From NCBI GenBank assembly GCA_021775995.1, contig JAJFGS010000013.1, positions 682,001 through 746,000 of the forward strand: a DNA stretch of 64,000 nt, given 5' to 3'. Origin of the DNA: Alphaproteobacteria bacterium (lineage in GTDB: Bacteria > Pseudomonadota > Alphaproteobacteria > Micavibrionales > Micavibrionaceae). The notes below the pieces were generated by a model, which saw only the letters and a program-made list of their open reading frames with translations, ran no database searches and was not told the origin of the DNA. Within the stretch, counting starts at the first letter, position 1. Each line of letters starts with the position of its first letter. The translations under genes and the position numbers were made by a program. Positions 44,801 to 54,616 of the stretch are shown piece after piece.

Positions 44801-47800
44801 TCAAATCTGCTTCTTTTCAATATCAATGTATAAACGGTCATTTCTACCCCCATCTGCCTTCAGAAGCCCAGAGGCACCAATCGCTACGCCATCTTCAACG
44901 CCAAGGATCAACCTTACCCCCTGATCTGTTGCCTCTGTATGGTAATTATACAAAATATTGCGTTCTTTACTGTCCCAACTGGTTACTGCTGAAGACCTAG
45001 CAAAAAGAAGCTCCACAAAAATAGAATTGCTCTGAGGGTCATGATGAATCGAATATTTTACAGGAGCCGATAAATCTAATACCACACGGACTTTATTCGG
45101 GTGCTCCCCTATACGAATATGTTTAACATTTGTTTGCCCTGTTTGCTTAATATTATTTTGAATTGCCGTATTCGCAGGATTATCAGAAGTGCTTACCTTG
45201 TAAACCTTTCCACTCCTTTTATCTTTATAACCCTTAGCAAGAGAAATAATATCTTTCACATTCAACGTTCCATCTTGGGCAACATCCATATCTAAATCAA
45301 TTTCTGCAACATCAGTATTTGGTGTCGCAGACATATCAATTCCAAATTGGAATAAATCATCTGGTGTTAAGTTTACGTACTTAAACGGAATATCAATACC
45401 CTCTTCAGGATCAGGACGGATAGTATAATTTCCTGGAGGAATTTGCTCAAAAGTAAAATAGCCATCAAACCCTGTTTGAGTTTCTCTAAGAATATCGGCT
45501 TCCTCATCAAGAAGTTGTAAAGTAACACCTGCAATTGGCTTACCTTCATCGCTCCACCTTAATGTTCCATCAATAGCGCCCGTCTCAATAAGAGGAAATT
45601 CTAACTGATGGACAACACCAGGTCTTGGATAAATTCTATATCCTGGAACCGAAGAAACAAGATAAGGGTCATCAATGCTTTCTTTGGCAACTTTAATTTT
45701 CGTCTTCTTACTACCCACTGATATGAGTTGCATAAGGTTACCACTCTCATCTGTTTCTTCTCTACTAATCCTTCTGTTAACAATAACACGCGTATCTTCT
45801 AATGGTTCGTCACTGTCGTCATACGTGCCATCATAATTTTTATCAGTATACAAAAACGAATTGACAGGTCCTACATTTGACAAAGGGTTACCTCTATATG
45901 CGTAAGTGCCATCTTCACCATACGGACCAAGAGACGTACTTGCCCGCAATGTAAACCCAACCCCTGTTGTCGATTGCCAATCAATATCCATACTCCCCAA
46001 GAATTTTTTATAATCTCGACTAATTTGAAAACCCAAACCTTTTTGGTCATTAATAAAACTATAATTGGCTCTTGCCGCCATAGAAAAATCTCTATTAGCC
46101 CTATACCGAAGCTCAGTCTGAAATGATGTCACTTCTGGATCTGGAGAAATGTTATAATCAAGACTGTTTCTAAAATTCCATTTATTCCGTCTTGTCGACG
46201 CTCCAAAACGCCCAGTGCTGAGCTGATGTTCACCGTCTGAAAAACTAGATCTTGTCGTATTTGTCATTCGTAGCGGCCCTATCCCCAAGGATTGTCTGGT
46301 TATATAATCGCTAACATCATCACGTTTTTTGCGTTTAGTATAATTCTGCCTTAACTCCAAACCCAACGCCCCAATGGCCGTTCTAAATATTTTCTTTACG
46401 CTAATATCAGTTTCTAAAGTTTTGGCATTGTCACCATTACTCGCATGCGGGCTTTCAAAATCACTAAAGGCTGAAATTTGTGCGTTTACTTTAAACCCCT
46501 TAAAATCACTTAAAGTTCTTACCTCCAGAGCTTGCCCACCATCAAGTTGCTTATAGCCCTCCACTTTAGCCAAAGTAGTACCAACAGAGCCAATAGCACC
46601 TGCAGATAAATATTCTCGTGAAACAGTATTGTTTCCATCTCTATCGCGAATCGTGTTTGCTGTAAAAAATGCTGTTAGTTTTTCTTTAATTCCACGCGCA
46701 GCATATATATTAGCAGCCAACCCTTCTCTAAGGCCTGTTCTTCTCTTGTCAATCGGAATTAAATCTTCATTACCGTCAACAATACCACCAGAAAAAACAT
46801 TTTTACCTTTTTCAATCATACTGGATTGATAAATATAATTTTCTACACGTTCTTTAATTTGACCTTGTGGGCCATAAAGAACAATACGAAATCTATTATT
46901 ACCAAAACCAACAGAGATATCCTCAAATCGATACTCTCCTCGATCATCAATAACACCAAAATTAAGAAGCTCGTTATTAAGATACAACTCTACTTCCCAA
47001 CCAGGTGTTCCTATACCATCAATCGTAATAAGATCGAATTCTCCAGACTTATTGCTACTTTCTGTAGAAAATAAGAATCCACGCCCACCAACATTATTTG
47101 AAATCAGCTCTCTATTCGACAAATTAACATCGCCCAATTGCGTGTCCTCAAGACCATAAGGAAGCGCACCCTCATGGATATTTTGTCGTCTTAAACGAAA
47201 ACGAATATTTTCTGGGTTCTGGAATTCACCATTACGATGAGCAAACGCCGCCGAATAATCAGCACTAGCATATGCCAAATCATTAACACCATTAACACTC
47301 AAACCGCCAAAAACATGTTCGGCTGCATCGTCATAACCCGTGGAAGCAGAAATATCGATTGTTGGCTTCGTATAAAATTGATAAGGGTACGGTATAAACG
47401 GAAAGTCGTCCCCTTCAAGCCTTTCTGCTCTACGTTCCTCTGTTCTTGCCCTTTGCTTCTCTCTAACCAAGGCTGTTTGGAAAGGCAAAGGTTTATCTGG
47501 AATAATATCAAGAACCAATGAACTTAAATTCACCTCAAACTGCGCAGGCCATATCTGTGATAAAACACCAGATAAAATATAAATATCATCATCTGCAACT
47601 TCAGGACCAATAAATGCTTCTGAAGGAAGGTCAAACTCTTCACCACGAAAACGTAATCTTTTATTTTGTACGTCAACAAAGTAACTATCTTCTTCAAAAA
47701 GCGCCCAACCATCGACAGTATGTATGGAAGTATCAATGTCATAATAAAAATCAAGAATTTCTGATAATGCGGCTACAGGAAAATAATATTCCCCATTTTT

Positions 47801-48136
47801 TTGGATAGCAAATACACCCTCAGATAATAGTTTTTTATCAGTTGTGACGGCAAGGACCAAATCCTCTACATTAGAATTATCATTGTCTTCTGCATAACCA
47901 AGATCATACGAATCATTTGAAGTTGTTTGAATACCACTTTCTGGCTCAATCAAATCTAAAGGCAAATCTTCTGGTAAAACATCTTGTTGCTCTTGAATAT
48001 TTTCTTCAGATGACTGTGTTTCTAATGTACTTTCTTCTGCAAAAGATGAATGCGGTTCAAGCAAAGCAGCAAACAAGATTCCAAAAAATAGAATCATGGC
48101 AAAAGCCCGACAATACTTGCTTGTAGAATTCGACAT
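44801..48136 (-). CDS. Usher-like outer-membrane protein with SdrD-B, dockerin-like and AMIN-like C-terminal segments
   Basis: Probable pilus-assembly usher of an alternative chaperone-usher system; 1,112 residues from the ATG at 48136 (GGCGG 9 nt upstream). Domains in order: signal peptide (1-32); periplasmic N-terminal region (about 60-210: FPVAALSEILDFYYDI and IYILSGVLSQIWPAQF); usher-type inner domain (about 355-415: GTPGWEVELYLNNELLNFG, then DISVGFGNNRFRIVLYGPQG); long beta-barrel (about 415-770); SdrD-B/Ca-loop YTDKNYDGTYDDSDEPLED (about 780); carboxypeptidase-regulatory-like domain (TGAIDGTLRWSDEGKPIAGV); one dockerin/EF-like motif DVAQDGTLNVKDIISLAKGY (about 951); and a C-terminal AMIN-like domain (about 1002-1110, VKHIRIGEHPNKVRVVLDLS). 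It is the last gene after two DUF4402 subunits and a PapD-like chaperone. Usher function is inferred from architecture and context. Confidence 0.75.
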   Translation of the reverse strand: MSNSTSKYCRAFAMILFFGILFAALLEPHSSFAEESTLETQSSEENIQEQQDVLPEDLPLDLIEPESGIQTTSNDSYDLGYAEDNDNSNVEDLVLAVTTDKKLLSEGVFAIQKNGEYYFPVAALSEILDFYYDIDTSIHTVDGWALFEEDSYFVDVQNKRLRFRGEEFDLPSEAFIGPEVADDDIYILSGVLSQIWPAQFEVNLSSLVLDIIPDKPLPFQTALVREKQRARTEERRAERLEGDDFPFIPYPYQFYTKPTIDISASTGYDDAAEHVFGGLSVNGVNDLAYASADYSAAFAHRNGEFQNPENIRFRLRRQNIHEGALPYGLEDTQLGDVNLSNRELISNNVGGRGFLFSTESSNKSGEFDLITIDGIGTPGWEVELYLNNELLNFGVIDDRGEYRFEDISVGFGNNRFRIVLYGPQGQIKERVENYIYQSSMIEKGKNVFSGGIVDGNEDLIPIDKRRTGLREGLAANIYAARGIKEKLTAFFTANTIRDRDGNNTVSREYLSAGAIGSVGTTLAKVEGYKQLDGGQALEVRTLSDFKGFKVNAQISAFSDFESPHASNGDNAKTLETDISVKKIFRTAIGALGLELRQNYTKRKKRDDVSDYITRQSLGIGPLRMTNTTRSSFSDGEHQLSTGRFGASTRRNKWNFRNSLDYNISPDPEVTSFQTELRYRANRDFSMAARANYSFINDQKGLGFQISRDYKKFLGSMDIDWQSTTGVGFTLRASTSLGPYGEDGTYAYRGNPLSNVGPVNSFLYTDKNYDGTYDDSDEPLEDTRVIVNRRISREETDESGNLMQLISVGSKKTKIKVAKESIDDPYLVSSVPGYRIYPRPGVVHQLEFPLIETGAIDGTLRWSDEGKPIAGVTLQLLDEEADILRETQTGFDGYFTFEQIPPGNYTIRPDPEEGIDIPFKYVNLTPDDLFQFGIDMSATPNTDVAEIDLDMDVAQDGTLNVKDIISLAKGYKDKRSGKVYKVSTSDNPANTAIQNNIKQTGQTNVKHIRIGEHPNKVRVVLDLSAPVKYSIHHDPQSNSIFVELLFARSSAVTSWDSKERNILYNYHTEATDQGVRLILGVEDGVAIGASGLLKADGGRNDRLYIDIEKKQI

Positions 48137-48277
48137 TATGGTCATCCGCCTGAATAGGCATTAAAGAACTGTGGATAGAATCATCCGCTCCTATTGTACC
48201 ATTAAAAACGCTATATTTAACAGCACTTTACTACATAAAGCCGTATCTTTAATATGATATTATGGATAACATAAAGC

Positions 48278-49126
48278 TTATTGGACTGACGCCTGTGCTT
48301 CAGCTAAAACTTTTATTGGTTTACCAATAAACCCGCTAGTTTCCGTATAACGGACCGTCAGGTTAGAGCATTTTGGGCTATCGGGTTTTTTAGCAATTTT
48401 TTTCTTCACATGACGCTTGCTGGTTTCAGCATAAAGAGAATAACCCCTTGTAAACTTTAACAAATATTCATTTCCACCCTGATTACATATAAAATCAAGG
48501 TCACCATAGGCGCTCTTGGTACCTTGGCGCGTCAAAGTAAAACTCGTAAAAATCTCTCCCCCTTGATCTACCGCATTAAAATCTTGAATTTCCGCGCTAA
48601 CATCCAAATCGCCCTTTCGAACAATAATTGGCATACTAACGCCTGCTAGCATTTTCATAGAAACACCAGGTTTTTTGCCTTCGTTACTACTATCTCTATA
48701 TGCCTGAACATCTTTCTCTGGGCGAATCCATAAATGTGACCTATATTCTCCATCGGCTAAATTTGAAGGCATACGCAACATCATACGAACTTGCTGAGAG
48801 CTCCTTGGCAATAAGGTAAAACGGCGCGGTGAAAAATGAACCATATCCACAACAGGGCGAATCTCTGGTGGAATATTATCTTCTGGAACGGCAACCAAGG
48901 ATTTTTTCTCCGTCATTTTAAAATGCTTCCAACCCAGACGGTATGTTTGTTTGTGATTAGAATTGTTAATAATTGTAATAACTTCAGCTCTTTTAGATCC
49001 TTCAAAAATAACCCGCTTTACAGTAACTGCAATAGCATCTGCATGGCGCGGAAATAAAAAAAACGTCGTAACAGACAACGTTAGAAACACCAAAAATAAA
49101 AATTTTATTTTATAATTATTCATCAT
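48278..49126 (-). CDS. PapD-like periplasmic pilus chaperone
   Basis: Probable chaperone that holds pilin subunits by donor-strand complementation. It has 282 residues. A signal peptide (to about residue 31, ending RHADA) is followed by an N-terminal immunoglobulin-like domain: AVTVKRVIFEGSKRAEVITIINNSNHKQTYRLGW-type strands, then HFSPRRFTLLPRSSQQVRMML, the G1-strand equivalent with the P-R-R/P-x-x-x-Q-x-V-R pattern. A second domain follows (FTLTRQGTKSAYGDLDF and SGFIGKPIKVLAEAQ). A frame open to 49138 exists, but GAGG six nt before the ATG at 49126 decides the start. That ribosome-binding site overlaps the stop of the upstream pilin gene. Confidence 0.82.
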   Translation of the reverse strand: MMNNYKIKFLFLVFLTLSVTTFFLFPRHADAIAVTVKRVIFEGSKRAEVITIINNSNHKQTYRLGWKHFKMTEKKSLVAVPEDNIPPEIRPVVDMVHFSPRRFTLLPRSSQQVRMMLRMPSNLADGEYRSHLWIRPEKDVQAYRDSSNEGKKPGVSMKMLAGVSMPIIVRKGDLDVSAEIQDFNAVDQGGEIFTSFTLTRQGTKSAYGDLDFICNQGGNEYLLKFTRGYSLYAETSKRHVKKKIAKKPDSPKCSNLTVRYTETSGFIGKPIKVLAEAQASVQ

Positions 49127-49134
49127 AAACAACC

Positions 49135-49659
49135 TCATTGATAATTAGCCATAACAGTATAGGTGCCAGAATATACACCATCAGTTTGTCCTGGTGCCGC
49201 TGCAACCGTTATAGTTGCCCCCAAAGGAAAGGAGGCAGGATTCGTTGTTAGTGTAACAGAAACAGAGGACCCACCGCCATTAATATCGAAAGTACCAACA
49301 TTCATCGCGGGACCAGGACCAGTAACTGAAAACGTTGCCGCCGTCATCGAAACATCAATAAGGACCCCAGTAGATCCTGAAATAGATAATATCCCTTGTG
49401 TTTCTAACCCCGCCCCTGCCAAAAGCGTTACTGAACCCGTTTTTGTTCTGACGCCCACAGTAGAAATTGAAACCGTTCCCCCTGTTGTCCCTGCCGAAAA
49501 AGTACCAAAATGAAGGGCGGAAGTTGAGCTAACCGCAATTGTAATCATGGCTTGTGCCACAGACGGAACAACCGTAAGAGGAATAAACGCAATCGTGGCC
49601 GGCAAACATTTTTTTGCCAGTGCCCCAACCGAAAATTTATGTTTTTTTATTATTTCCAT
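49135..49659 (-). CDS. DUF4402 pilin-like surface subunit 1
   Basis: Exported 174-residue protein of the DUF4402 family. A long signal peptide (residues 1-37, ending in SVAQA) is followed by an all-beta domain of Gly, Ser, Thr and Val. It shows the family start ITIAVSSTSALHFGTFSAGT and the family end GVYSGTYTVMANYQ. FDINGGGSSVSVTLT and LPLGATITVAAAPGQ-type strands lie between. Such domains are proposed pilin-like units, handled here by the chaperone encoded 9 nt downstream. Paralogue of subunit 2, about 40% alike by eye in the terminal strands. Confidence 0.8.
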   Translation of the reverse strand: MEIIKKHKFSVGALAKKCLPATIAFIPLTVVPSVAQAMITIAVSSTSALHFGTFSAGTTGGTVSISTVGVRTKTGSVTLLAGAGLETQGILSISGSTGVLIDVSMTAATFSVTGPGPAMNVGTFDINGGGSSVSVTLTTNPASFPLGATITVAAAPGQTDGVYSGTYTVMANYQ

Positions 49660-49750
49660 TTACCAGCAGACAATGTGCAACTATATGTAAAAAAATACTC
49701 ACAAACAGAATAGCAACTGATTGTGAGTATTAAAAGATAATTATAAAATA

Positions 49751-50323
49751 TTATTGATAAGTTACATCAACCGTATACGCACCTGTAAATGTTACTGGTG
49801 TAATCCCAACGATTGCTGCTGCTTGTCCAGCAGGAACATTCAACGTTGCACCAACAGGCACAACAACAGTTGTCGCAGGACCAACAATTGACGTTGTCAC
49901 CGATGTACCACCAGCTGCAGTTTTCAGATTAAACTGGTTAACATTCATTGCTAAACCAGCACCACCATCATCGACTGTAAATACTGTAGCGGTCATCGCA
50001 ACATCCATCGTAAGACCTGTTGCCGCAGTGATTTCGATTCGCCCTTCATTCTCTAAACCTGCGCCACCAACCTCGGTCACACTGCCAGTTCCAGCCCCTC
50101 TTGTCCCTGCCGTATCAACGGCAATATCACCTAGTGCTGTTGTAACAGTCATAGAACCGAAATGTAAAACTTGAGTTGATGTGACAGCAATCGGCGTCAA
50201 AATGATTGCGGATATTAAACCCGTTCCTGTAGTAGCTCCCACTGGATTAGAACTCAACGCCACAAGGGCCGTCCCCATCAGTAAAGCCTTGCCTATATCA
50301 CTACCATTCTTGGTATTTTTCAT
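49751..50323 (-). CDS. DUF4402 pilin-like surface subunit 2
   Basis: Exported 190-residue DUF4402 protein and first gene of the operon. The signal peptide ends SNPVGA (about residue 30). The mature chain shows the family start ITPIAVTSTQVLHFGSMTVTT-like strand, GAGLENEGRIEITAATGLTMDVAM in the middle, and GITPVTFTGAYTVDVTYQ at the end. AGGA six nt before the ATG is a good ribosome-binding site. Its position first in the operon and its paralogy to subunit 1 suggest a major/minor subunit pair. No Cys pair or pilus tip domain is evident. Confidence 0.8.
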   Translation of the reverse strand: MKNTKNGSDIGKALLMGTALVALSSNPVGATTGTGLISAIILTPIAVTSTQVLHFGSMTVTTALGDIAVDTAGTRGAGTGSVTEVGGAGLENEGRIEITAATGLTMDVAMTATVFTVDDGGAGLAMNVNQFNLKTAAGGTSVTTSIVGPATTVVVPVGATLNVPAGQAAAIVGITPVTFTGAYTVDVTYQ

Positions 50324-52898: not shown

Positions 52899-54467
52899 CT
52901 AATTAAAAAATCCAGAATTACCTGTAAATAACTGAAGTATTGTAGCACGGCTTTGGCTAGCAAGACTAAGAGCTGTTGTCCCTAAATCTAGCCTTGTCTG
53001 ACTAGCAAGAATATTTGCTCCTTCTTCATTTTGATCTGCAATAATAAGATCAGAAGCCCCTGCCTTTAAATTGGTAATAACATTTCTGGTAAAGTCTTGC
53101 CGTGTGCTAATAATTGAAAAATCTGTCGAAAGCTTTGTTCCAAAATCACGCACTTTTTCAATGGCTTTTCGAACATTGCGGATAGCATCTTCCACCTGTG
53201 AAGGTTTCTGAAAATTCACACTATCAAGACCCAATGCTGCAAGGGTAAAACTTTCTCCCTCTGTTTCTAACTGACTACTTCTATCATGGTTAAAATCTAC
53301 AATAAGATCTTCTTTGTCTAACAAGTTAATTCCTCGAAAATGACTATCTTCGACAACAGAATCAATTTGTTCTAAAAACACCTGCATTTCCTGCCTGAAT
53401 TGTTCTGAAAGAGGAAGTGATGTTGCCTCATAACGTGCCTGCAAGTCTGCTTGGGAAATAATGCTGTTATAAAAAGCGACATCGGATATTTCACCACGGA
53501 AAGCAAAAGATCCATCTGGGCGATTGGGAGCATTACCCGGCCCATCATCATGAAAATATATATCCTGGTCTATCGCACCGATAGCATTGCGGTTTGGATG
53601 GCTTCCTATCGGTACAGGAATAAAGGCAGAACCAAACTCTTCACCATTCAGATAACCTAAAAAAGTATTGTTATTTGCATCTTGAACCAAAGCAACGTGG
53701 TAAGAAGTCTCTGCATCAATCGGCACGCTAATATCCAAAGGACCATAACCGCCTGCATTTGTCGTACGGCCATTAACACGTAACAAACCATTATCAATAT
53801 AGATGGTTAAATTATTGACAGGACCACCCTCTTCCCAGAGAACCTGCCGCCCGCCTGTACTATCTGCATTAAAAATAAGCTCTATTGTTTTTTCATTATA
53901 AGGACCTAGCGTGTTGATAGAATCATCAACAGGCACAGCAACATATTGTGCAGCCCCATCAAATTTTGCGGGCAAACCACCTGCTCCATAAAATAAAATT
54001 TCGTCTCCTTGCGTCACACCATTAGTGTAGACCCCATCACCACCAGCGCCCAAAGTCCCAAGGTTAAATGCTGTCGGCCCATCTGCATCATTAAGACGAA
54101 AATAACCAACAGGTGCATCTGCTAAAATAGCATTCGGTAAAGCAGAATCAGTCTTTTCTAATTCTTCTTTAGCTTCTAAAGCTTTTAACTCTGCTAAGTT
54201 TAAAATTTTTTCAATTGTTTCAACACCAGTAACAGCTTCCTGGATTGTACGAACACCCAATCCCATACCATCTAATAATCTATTAAATATATCTGCAGAA
54301 TGATTAAGGGCAGATGCTTGAAAAAAATTTTGAGGCTGGTCTATAGCACGATTAACTTTGTTACCAGTCGCCAGACGTTCAGAAGTGCGCTCAAGATTCT
54401 CTCTTGAACGCTGAATGCTTGTCAGCGTGCTTTTAACTGTCGCACCTACTATAATATCATTACCCAT
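52899..54467 (-). CDS. Flagellin with inserted LamG/concanavalin-like domain
   Basis: A 522-residue flagellin. Residues 1-112 are the D0/D1 N-terminal helices (IIVGATVKSTLTSIQRSRENL, RLATGNKVNRAIDQP, GVRTIQEAVTGVETIEKIL). Residues about 352-522 are the C-terminal D1/D0 region (RNVITNLKAGASDLIIADQN and GTTALSLASQSRATILQLF). Between them (about 115-350), the variable D2/D3 part is a LamG_3-type jelly roll. It starts DAPVGYFRLNDADGPTAFNL and has PAKFDGAAQYVAVPVDDSI, TSYHVALVQDANNNTFLGYL, and the diagnostic end RGEISDVAFYNSIISQADLQ. No other flagellar genes are near. The ATG at 54467 gives MGNDIIVG. A filament displaying a lectin-like domain is implied; ligand unknown. Confidence 0.88.
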   Translation of the reverse strand: MGNDIIVGATVKSTLTSIQRSRENLERTSERLATGNKVNRAIDQPQNFFQASALNHSADIFNRLLDGMGLGVRTIQEAVTGVETIEKILNLAELKALEAKEELEKTDSALPNAILADAPVGYFRLNDADGPTAFNLGTLGAGGDGVYTNGVTQGDEILFYGAGGLPAKFDGAAQYVAVPVDDSINTLGPYNEKTIELIFNADSTGGRQVLWEEGGPVNNLTIYIDNGLLRVNGRTTNAGGYGPLDISVPIDAETSYHVALVQDANNNTFLGYLNGEEFGSAFIPVPIGSHPNRNAIGAIDQDIYFHDDGPGNAPNRPDGSFAFRGEISDVAFYNSIISQADLQARYEATSLPLSEQFRQEMQVFLEQIDSVVEDSHFRGINLLDKEDLIVDFNHDRSSQLETEGESFTLAALGLDSVNFQKPSQVEDAIRNVRKAIEKVRDFGTKLSTDFSIISTRQDFTRNVITNLKAGASDLIIADQNEEGANILASQTRLDLGTTALSLASQSRATILQLFTGNSGFFN

Positions 54468-54616
54468 TCATGCCTTCCCGCAATTATCGGTATATACAAT
54501 GCAAACTTCATACCAAGTATCACTATGTTTCTACACGAATACTTTGTAAGATTTCAATGGCTTACATCATTACTACTATATTATAGAAAAAAAGTTAAAT
54601 TATAATTAGAGAAGCC

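Follow-up and report, generated by a model that had tools for sequence, protein, structure and literature searches.

A flagellin family of Micavibrionales with a conserved LamG-type jelly roll in the outer-domain position

The 64,000-nucleotide stretch of a Micavibrionaceae genome analysed here (the window) encodes a flagellin whose outer domain, at approximately residues 110-350, is confirmed as a LamG/concanavalin-like jelly roll. The computations disclose (i) the LamG domain and its predicted fold, (ii) intact flagellin ends, (iii) a conservation pattern in which the insert surpasses the ends, (iv) the spread of the protein across a bacterial lineage, and (v) a flagellar-gene neighbourhood in several relatives. 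We consider it reasonably probable that the protein joins the filament as an accessory component beside ordinary flagellin and exposes LamG there as an adhesin-like module that binds glycans.

Domain architecture

The gene comprises an intact open reading frame (Table 1), and its 522-aa product displays a Pfam Flagellin_N match at residues 13-104 (E 1.3e-9, above the cut-off), a Laminin_G_3 match at residues 170-342 (E 2.9e-7), and a PF00700 Flagellin_C match at residues 430-514 that falls below the cut-off (E 9.1e-4, 19.9 bits, cut-off 23). Since the ordinary flagellin of the genome is likewise below the Flagellin_C cut-off (19.2 bits), the weak C-terminal score is not peculiar to the LamG flagellin. 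The top NCBIfam match is flagellin PRK12688 (2e-43, 148.8 bits), a model with a far higher cut-off of 614. The initial annotation had read the insert as LamG and proposed a profile search against the LamG families; Laminin_G_3 scores 31.2 bits against a cut-off of 27.6, and, together with the predicted fold and the structural comparisons described below, this bears out the identification. The placement of the insert at the outer-domain position is equally upheld by the order of the Pfam matches and by the superposition of the modelled ends on solved filaments, whereas the limits originally given, residues 115-350, are slightly widened to about 110-350.

The ordinary flagellin, the only other Flagellin_N match in the genome, shares the D0/D1 ends with the LamG flagellin, at an identity of 46% for residues 1-107 and of 50% for the 163 residues 352-514, whereas its outer part matches Flagellin_IN, not LamG, and is the least conserved region between species. 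No middle part of the two proteins was aligned by BLAST. Comparison with other axial and enzyme-bearing families returned only marginal scores: the flagellinolysin model NF033876 reached 16 bits (cut-off 205), confined to residues 397-443; no family of peptidases, such as the HExxH gluzincins, is among the Pfam matches; and the FlgL model TIGR02550 reached 16.9 bits (cut-off 127.2, E 0.0031). A separate FlgL-like gene, itself below the TIGR02550 cut-off (E 9.6e-12, 44.5 bits), is encoded elsewhere in the genome.

The same architecture recurs in other flagellins, as the initial annotation had envisaged. In a Pfam scan of 31 full-length proteins, the window's and 30 relatives, at E <=0.01, Laminin_G_3 and Flagellin_N (PF00669) are matched by all 31, Flagellin_C by nine, and the Sialidase N-terminal family additionally by three.

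Table 1. Coordinates of the LamG flagellin gene, its domains, and associated or related genes. Unprefixed positions refer to the window.
Feature	Position	Strand	Details
LamG flagellin gene	52899..54467	-	intact ORF, 522 codons, ATG start
Flagellin N-terminal D0/D1 helices, residues 1-107	54147..54467	-	Flagellin_N 13-104; predicted helices 9-34, 45-104
LamG/concanavalin-like jelly-roll outer domain, residues 110-350	53418..54140	-	Laminin_G_3, AlphaFold2, VIA
Flagellin C-terminal D1/D0 part, residues 351-522	52902..53417	-	identity to ordinary flagellin; predicted helices
Sigma-54-like promoter site	54500..54516	-	TTGGTATGAAGTTTGCA; begins 49 bases upstream of the LamG flagellin ATG
TPR-repeat sulfotransferase, 791 aa	50520..52895	+	converges on the LamG flagellin gene, 3 bases between
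DUF4402/usher-like block	44801-50323	-	two DUF4402 proteins, chaperone-like protein, large usher-like protein; ~2.6 kb from the LamG flagellin gene
Ordinary flagellin, 552 aa	C5:212.7-214.3 kb (L015:7684-9342)		
FlgL-like gene, 382-aa frame	C3:243934-245061		
Tandem LamG flagellin pairs	L047:5221-8555; L091:4216-7569		each within a single genome
Extra flagellins, ~440-460 aa	L083:5443-6762; L056:1791-3110; G009:C8:68286-69584; G006:C13:24951-25430		
Methyltransferases between LamG and ordinary flagellins	L086:7621-9252; L087:7562-9271		
TPR-sulfotransferase relative beside a flagellin	L086:9258-10943 (= G019:C1:121750-123207)		Pfam for L086 only
TPR-sulfotransferase relatives beside flagellins	G040:C4:60045-61502; G035:C47:1772-3175; G050:C4:166294-168824		position match
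RTX-repeat protein, 1415 aa	L108:2836-7083		two LamG stretches and a C-type lectin domain

Predicted structure

The AlphaFold2 model of the whole protein, computed with 31 sequences, has a mean pLDDT of 88.2, falling below 50 solely at the two termini (residues 1-6 and 511-522), and the insert modelled alone reaches a pLDDT of 94.9 and a pTM of 0.92. The predicted helices span residues 9-34, 45-104, 351-374, and 422-515, the last two being separated by short strands, and the N- and C-terminal helices together form a single D0/D1 rod. The modelled ends superpose on the H. pylori FlaB filament (9yh1; VIA Z 19.2, rmsd 4.7, 267 aligned within residues 2-515) and on a Shewanella filament (9lah; VIA Z 19.0, rmsd 4.8, 267 aligned). 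The predicted insert resembles (i) domain 4 of the arabinanase AbnA (5ho2; VIA Z 21.8, rmsd 2.4, 193 residues), (ii) the jelly-roll domain of clostridial NTNH (9arl_B; VIA Z 21.3, rmsd 2.5, 200 residues), and (iii) neurotoxin binding regions (VIA Z 19-20), and its Foldseek neighbours include carbohydrate-binding proteins, namely AbnA domain 4 (5hon, a structure with sugar ligand), pentraxins, and sialidases. These matches are a likeness of fold and not a demonstration of function; LamG folds can also bind proteins or serve as spacers, and a jelly roll is no proof of glycan binding.

Inverted conservation

The initial annotation had described the insert as the variable domain of the flagellin; it does occupy the outer-domain position, but far from being variable it is the best conserved part of the LamG flagellins. 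In seven genomes of the genus the insert shows 70.7% identity versus 55.4% for the ends, with the insert higher in 21/21 pairs. The relation is reversed in the ordinary flagellins from these genomes, at 54.6% for the middle versus 81.0% for the ends, with the middle higher in 0/21 pairs; G001, whose ordinary flagellin is partial, stands outside this matched set. Eight genomes of several genera display the same trend, with the insert at 59.7% versus 53.2% for the ends (insert higher in 20/28 pairs) and, for the ordinary flagellins, the middle at 38.0% versus 75.2% (middle higher in 0/28). Unmatched sets agree: 45.6% versus 38.8% among 24 LamG flagellins (203/276 pairs with the insert higher), 46.2% versus 40.5% among 31 (331/465 pairs), and N-terminal, middle, and C-terminal identities of 71.6, 31.6, and 65.4% among 17 ordinary flagellins (middle higher in 0/136 pairs), these last being hand-picked, one of them from the suspect L102 contig, and drawn from species that differ from those of the LamG sets.

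The invariant columns of the LamG flagellins fall mainly within the LamG part, 19/28 and 18/27 in two alignments. The inversion has two sources, the insert outdoing the outer domain of ordinary flagellins and the ends lagging behind ordinary ends, the latter leaving room for a specialised or a poorly assembling subunit. The pattern is not uniform: when the window's protein is compared with several other genera, the identity of its insert falls a few points short of that of its ends.

Distribution

Among the matches listed, 33 near-full-length LamG flagellins occur in 26 of 142 Micavibrionales genomes, so that the gene is patchy within the order; the carriers comprise 22 genomes of the window's family, including 9/10 of the genus, and three plus one in two further families. 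Close orthologues are found in 9/10 genus genomes, the window's own counted, the copy in G007 being cut by a contig end. An additional flagellin match devoid of LamG is present, among the matches listed, in 25/26 carrier genomes (the 26th being G075), and the LamG flagellin is thus an addition to another flagellin, not a substitute for it. Relatives were collected by a contig scan with two insert motifs, in which 80 of 86 relatives were kept; one full-length match, on L102, sits in a bin titled Cytophagales and is taken as a mis-binned contig.

In an even sample of the class, 4/385 genomes match at 1e-60, all from the window's genus or family, and in a sample of the phylum, in which the genomes among the matches listed all belong to that same class, 3/398 pass 1e-40, namely the window's own genome and two matches restricted to the C-terminal flagellin part. 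With up to three candidates scored per genome, strict E limits, and one LamG subfamily as query, no LamG flagellin was found outside the family in these 385 class and 398 phylum genomes. Among the matches listed, none is a full-length LamG flagellin from G031 or G071 (single-contig, 2.5 Mb), two genomes that we take to be possibly the cultured predator M. aeruginosavorus, which disfavours a core role in predation.

An origin from mobile elements was considered and set aside: no tblastn match at E 1e-5 was obtained among 50,697 phage records, and the 64 viral-contig stretches that match a motif include none encoding a relative.

Two arrangements accompany this spread (Table 1). Tandem LamG flagellin pairs occur within single genomes, the L047 pair adjoining genes that, judged by eye, look like glycosyltransferases. 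Extra flagellins recur in the order; that of L083 lies directly upstream of the LamG flagellin and presents Flagellin_N and no recognised outer domain in Pfam.

Promoter and flagellar gene neighbourhood

Sigma-54 controls flagellar genes in alphaproteobacteria, and the genome encodes RpoN. Upstream regions were scored against the sigma-54 consensus, and a candidate sigma-54-like site precedes the window's gene (Table 1). Sites with at least 10 of 13 matches within 150 bases upstream occur in 8/8 orthologous loci of the genus, against 0.06 expected from shuffles, these loci being related and not independent of each other, and in only 2/25 other LamG genes, against 0.27 expected, a set that includes four additional copies from the genus itself. 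A sigma-28-like match at 54484-54510 with 2 mismatches looked striking and was dropped for the sigma-54-like site; at up to 3 mismatches the window contains three such matches versus 1.24 expected, a count reached by 9/100 shuffles, and the upstream regions of relatives are at or near the shuffle level.

The genus orthologues stand apart from the ordinary flagellin gene. Seven loci of other relatives (L085, L086, L087, L089, L090, L094, and L097) have an ordinary flagellin gene downstream of the LamG flagellin and in the same orientation, separated by 157-224 bases in five of them, by one gene in L087, and by two in L086. In L085 the Pfam matches identify FlgE on the upstream side; on the downstream side lie the ordinary flagellin, FlbT, and FlaF.

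The LamG domain in RTX-repeat proteins

The genome presents Laminin_G_3 matches at eight places, seven of which, one below the cut-off, lie outside the LamG flagellin gene and are distributed over five proteins, whose open frames measure 630-1371 aa. A Pfam scan of three of these five proteins returned RTX calcium-binding repeats in all three and LamG above the cut-off in two (1024 and 751 aa; L012 and L014), LamG not being among the matches of the third (L016) in that scan; the matches of the RTX-repeat proteins scanned include H_lectin below its cut-off. The 1024- and 751-aa proteins carry the same LamG subfamily as the insert, with about 37-44% domain identity, but differ from the LamG flagellin by their RTX calcium-binding repeats and the absence of flagellin ends. 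RTX-repeat proteins are usually exported by type I secretion. LamG also occurs on RTX proteins of relatives (L105 and L108), one of which combines two LamG stretches with a C-type lectin domain (Table 1).

A tree of 67 of 105 extracted LamG stretches, leaving out five 'rtx' rows (L117, L008 twice, L151 twice), two short stretches, and 31 more distant ones, unites the domains from flagellins (33 rows) with those from Micavibrionales RTX proteins (13 rows, assigned by a simple repeat pattern) in a single clade (100/99), within which flagellin and RTX domains are intermixed. The tree requires four changes of the flagellin label, at least two of them forced by well-supported branches; a single clade of flagellin LamG domains is not rejected (p-AU 0.08). 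In a tree of the flagellin ends, midpoint-rooted and with three very long branches, 17 ordinary flagellins form one clade (99/95) whose sister comprises 22 LamG flagellins, including the window's (99/92), with nine more divergent LamG flagellins outside both. On these trees, the LamG domain has probably moved between filament and RTX proteins. Twenty-nine LamG residues reach a conservation of at least 90% in 32 flagellin domains as well as in 13 RTX-protein domains, although many of these residues may belong to the fold core.

Proposed function and alternatives

In the favoured reading, the D0/D1 ends would direct export by the flagellar apparatus and insertion into the filament next to ordinary flagellin, and the jelly roll, kin to the LamG domains of RTX proteins, would be displayed at the filament surface, where it may bind a glycan or another surface ligand. 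The filament, or a stretch thereof, would so become a polyvalent adhesin for particles, biofilm, other cells, or prey. Co-assembly, surface display, and ligand binding are inferred from the computed features; adhesion to glycans is our best guess, based on the fold and on the second home of the domain in RTX-repeat proteins, some of them with other lectin-type domains. The frozen LamG sequence suggests a fixed partner, and since RTX proteins carry the domain as well, that partner may also be contacted from other sites on the cell. The initial annotation had pictured thousands of modules per filament, which presumes a major subunit; since 25/26 carriers also have a LamG-free flagellin match, among the matches listed, the LamG flagellin may be a minority subunit, possibly a stage-specific one.

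Prey as the target is a guess from lineage. Micavibrio relatives include epibiotic predators, and the filament of this lineage might double as a polyvalent lectin, bearing a domain in common with RTX-repeat surface proteins, by which a swimming, prey-seeking cell recognises and grips its target, selection having frozen an otherwise hypervariable region to preserve its specificity; we deem this extension rather unlikely, because the two genomes that may, on our assumption, be M. aeruginosavorus show no full-length LamG flagellin among the matches listed. The available portion of PMC3189940 describes, for M. aeruginosavorus, flagellar genes that are on in attack phase and shut down upon attachment, and one RTX protein with a lectin-like domain. 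These features would fit contact sensing or capture.

The same observations can be read without a foreign ligand. LamG could be a purely structural outer domain that packs on its neighbours and makes the filament stiffer or thicker, as an aid to swimming in viscous media; contacts between outer domains that tune motility are described in the accessible parts of PMC8931119 and PMC10256154, and the high conservation of LamG would suit, and could reflect, a packing interface on the filament. We nevertheless hold this to be unlikely, given that the same LamG residues are conserved in RTX-repeat proteins without flagellin ends, that the LamG subunit joins another flagellin instead of replacing it (25/26 genomes, among the matches listed), and that the ordinary flagellins of these genomes manage without LamG. 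A low probability is likewise assigned to binding of the producer's own polysaccharide or matrix, in filament-to-cell, filament-to-filament, or biofilm anchoring: the LamG-bearing RTX-repeat proteins of the genome speak for it, as does the DUF4402/usher-like block, perhaps a pilus, near the gene in the window and in L078, with relatives of parts of the block in L079 and L082, whereas nothing specific to self-binding was found in the analysis.

A role outside the filament proper, as a hook-filament junction or special axial protein or as a subunit secreted unassembled, would agree with ends that are less conserved than the ordinary flagellin ends of the same genomes, yet it is quite improbable in view of the NCBIfam scores (PRK12688 at 2e-43 versus FlgL at 0.0031), the separate, sub-cut-off FlgL-like gene, the 46-50% identity of the ends to ordinary flagellin, and the position of the gene between flgE and ordinary flagellin in L085. 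Variable outer domains of flagellins elsewhere are often explained as decoys for phages or grazers; that the insert binds nothing and only changes the surface met by phages that attach to flagella, or by grazers, is nonetheless very improbable, as a decoy should vary fast and the LamG insert is the best conserved part.

Relation to known flagellin insertions

Domain insertions in flagellins are already known, and the one found described in depth is an enzyme. Flagellinolysin, as presented in the accessible text of Eckhard et al. 2017 (PMC5595980), carries a metallopeptidase in the hypervariable region and yields proteolytically active filaments; it resembles the LamG flagellin in having a functional domain inserted between intact flagellin ends, but its insert is a protease scattered across many phyla, whereas the LamG insert has a lectin-type fold so far observed in one order. 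The same text reports 61 domains among 26,587 flagellins surveyed, with a top ten that includes 'Sialidase' (10) and vWFA (21) and not LamG; since 3/31 LamG flagellins match Sialidase N-terminal, a few LamG inserts may already sit in that 'Sialidase' tally. A further likeness is the Clostridium botulinum flagellin CBO0798, whose insert at about residues 135-360 was threaded (3D-PSSM) as an HCRn-like jelly roll, a domain likened to laminin G domains, in the available part of Doxey et al. 2008 (PMC2605760). Both flagellins thus have a predicted jelly-roll insert, but CBO0798 belongs to another phylum, its jelly roll rests on threading, and a conserved LamG family is not described in that text. 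The literature covered, which comprised few subscription journals and the starts of abstracts, yielded no paper on LamG flagellins, and lectin-type flagellin inserts were not found in the accessible parts of PMC12445082 and PMC7908775.

In this lineage-specific flagellin family the exposed domain is better conserved than the core, the opposite of what is usual, and the contrast holds even with ordinary flagellins from the very genomes concerned; this points towards a fixed partner. The family offers a testable link of motility and surface recognition in a group to which epibiotic predators belong, and a natural template on which filaments that bind ligands could be modelled.

Other adjoining genes

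The 791-aa neighbour that converges on the LamG flagellin gene displays Pfam TPR repeats and a Sulfotransfer_3 domain (3.3e-44). It was considered as a conserved partner or modifier of the flagellin and rejected: within the genus it stands beside the LamG flagellin in the window and L078, the best relatives in G001, G002, G003, G004, and G006 not adjoining the LamG flagellin, and it is consequently not counted in the LamG flagellin system. The DUF4402/usher-like block (Table 1) has relatives of all four genes in L078 and of parts in L079 and L082, and is perhaps an alternative chaperone-usher pilus, the usher and chaperone reading not being named by Pfam. Between the LamG and ordinary flagellins of L086 and L087 lies a methyltransferase, possibly a flagellin methylase, that of L086 with a PKMT-type C-terminal domain in Pfam. 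Relatives of the TPR-sulfotransferase, in frames of about 530-750 aa, adjoin flagellin genes in four Micavibrionales genomes, which hints at sulfation of flagellin or of flagellin glycans.
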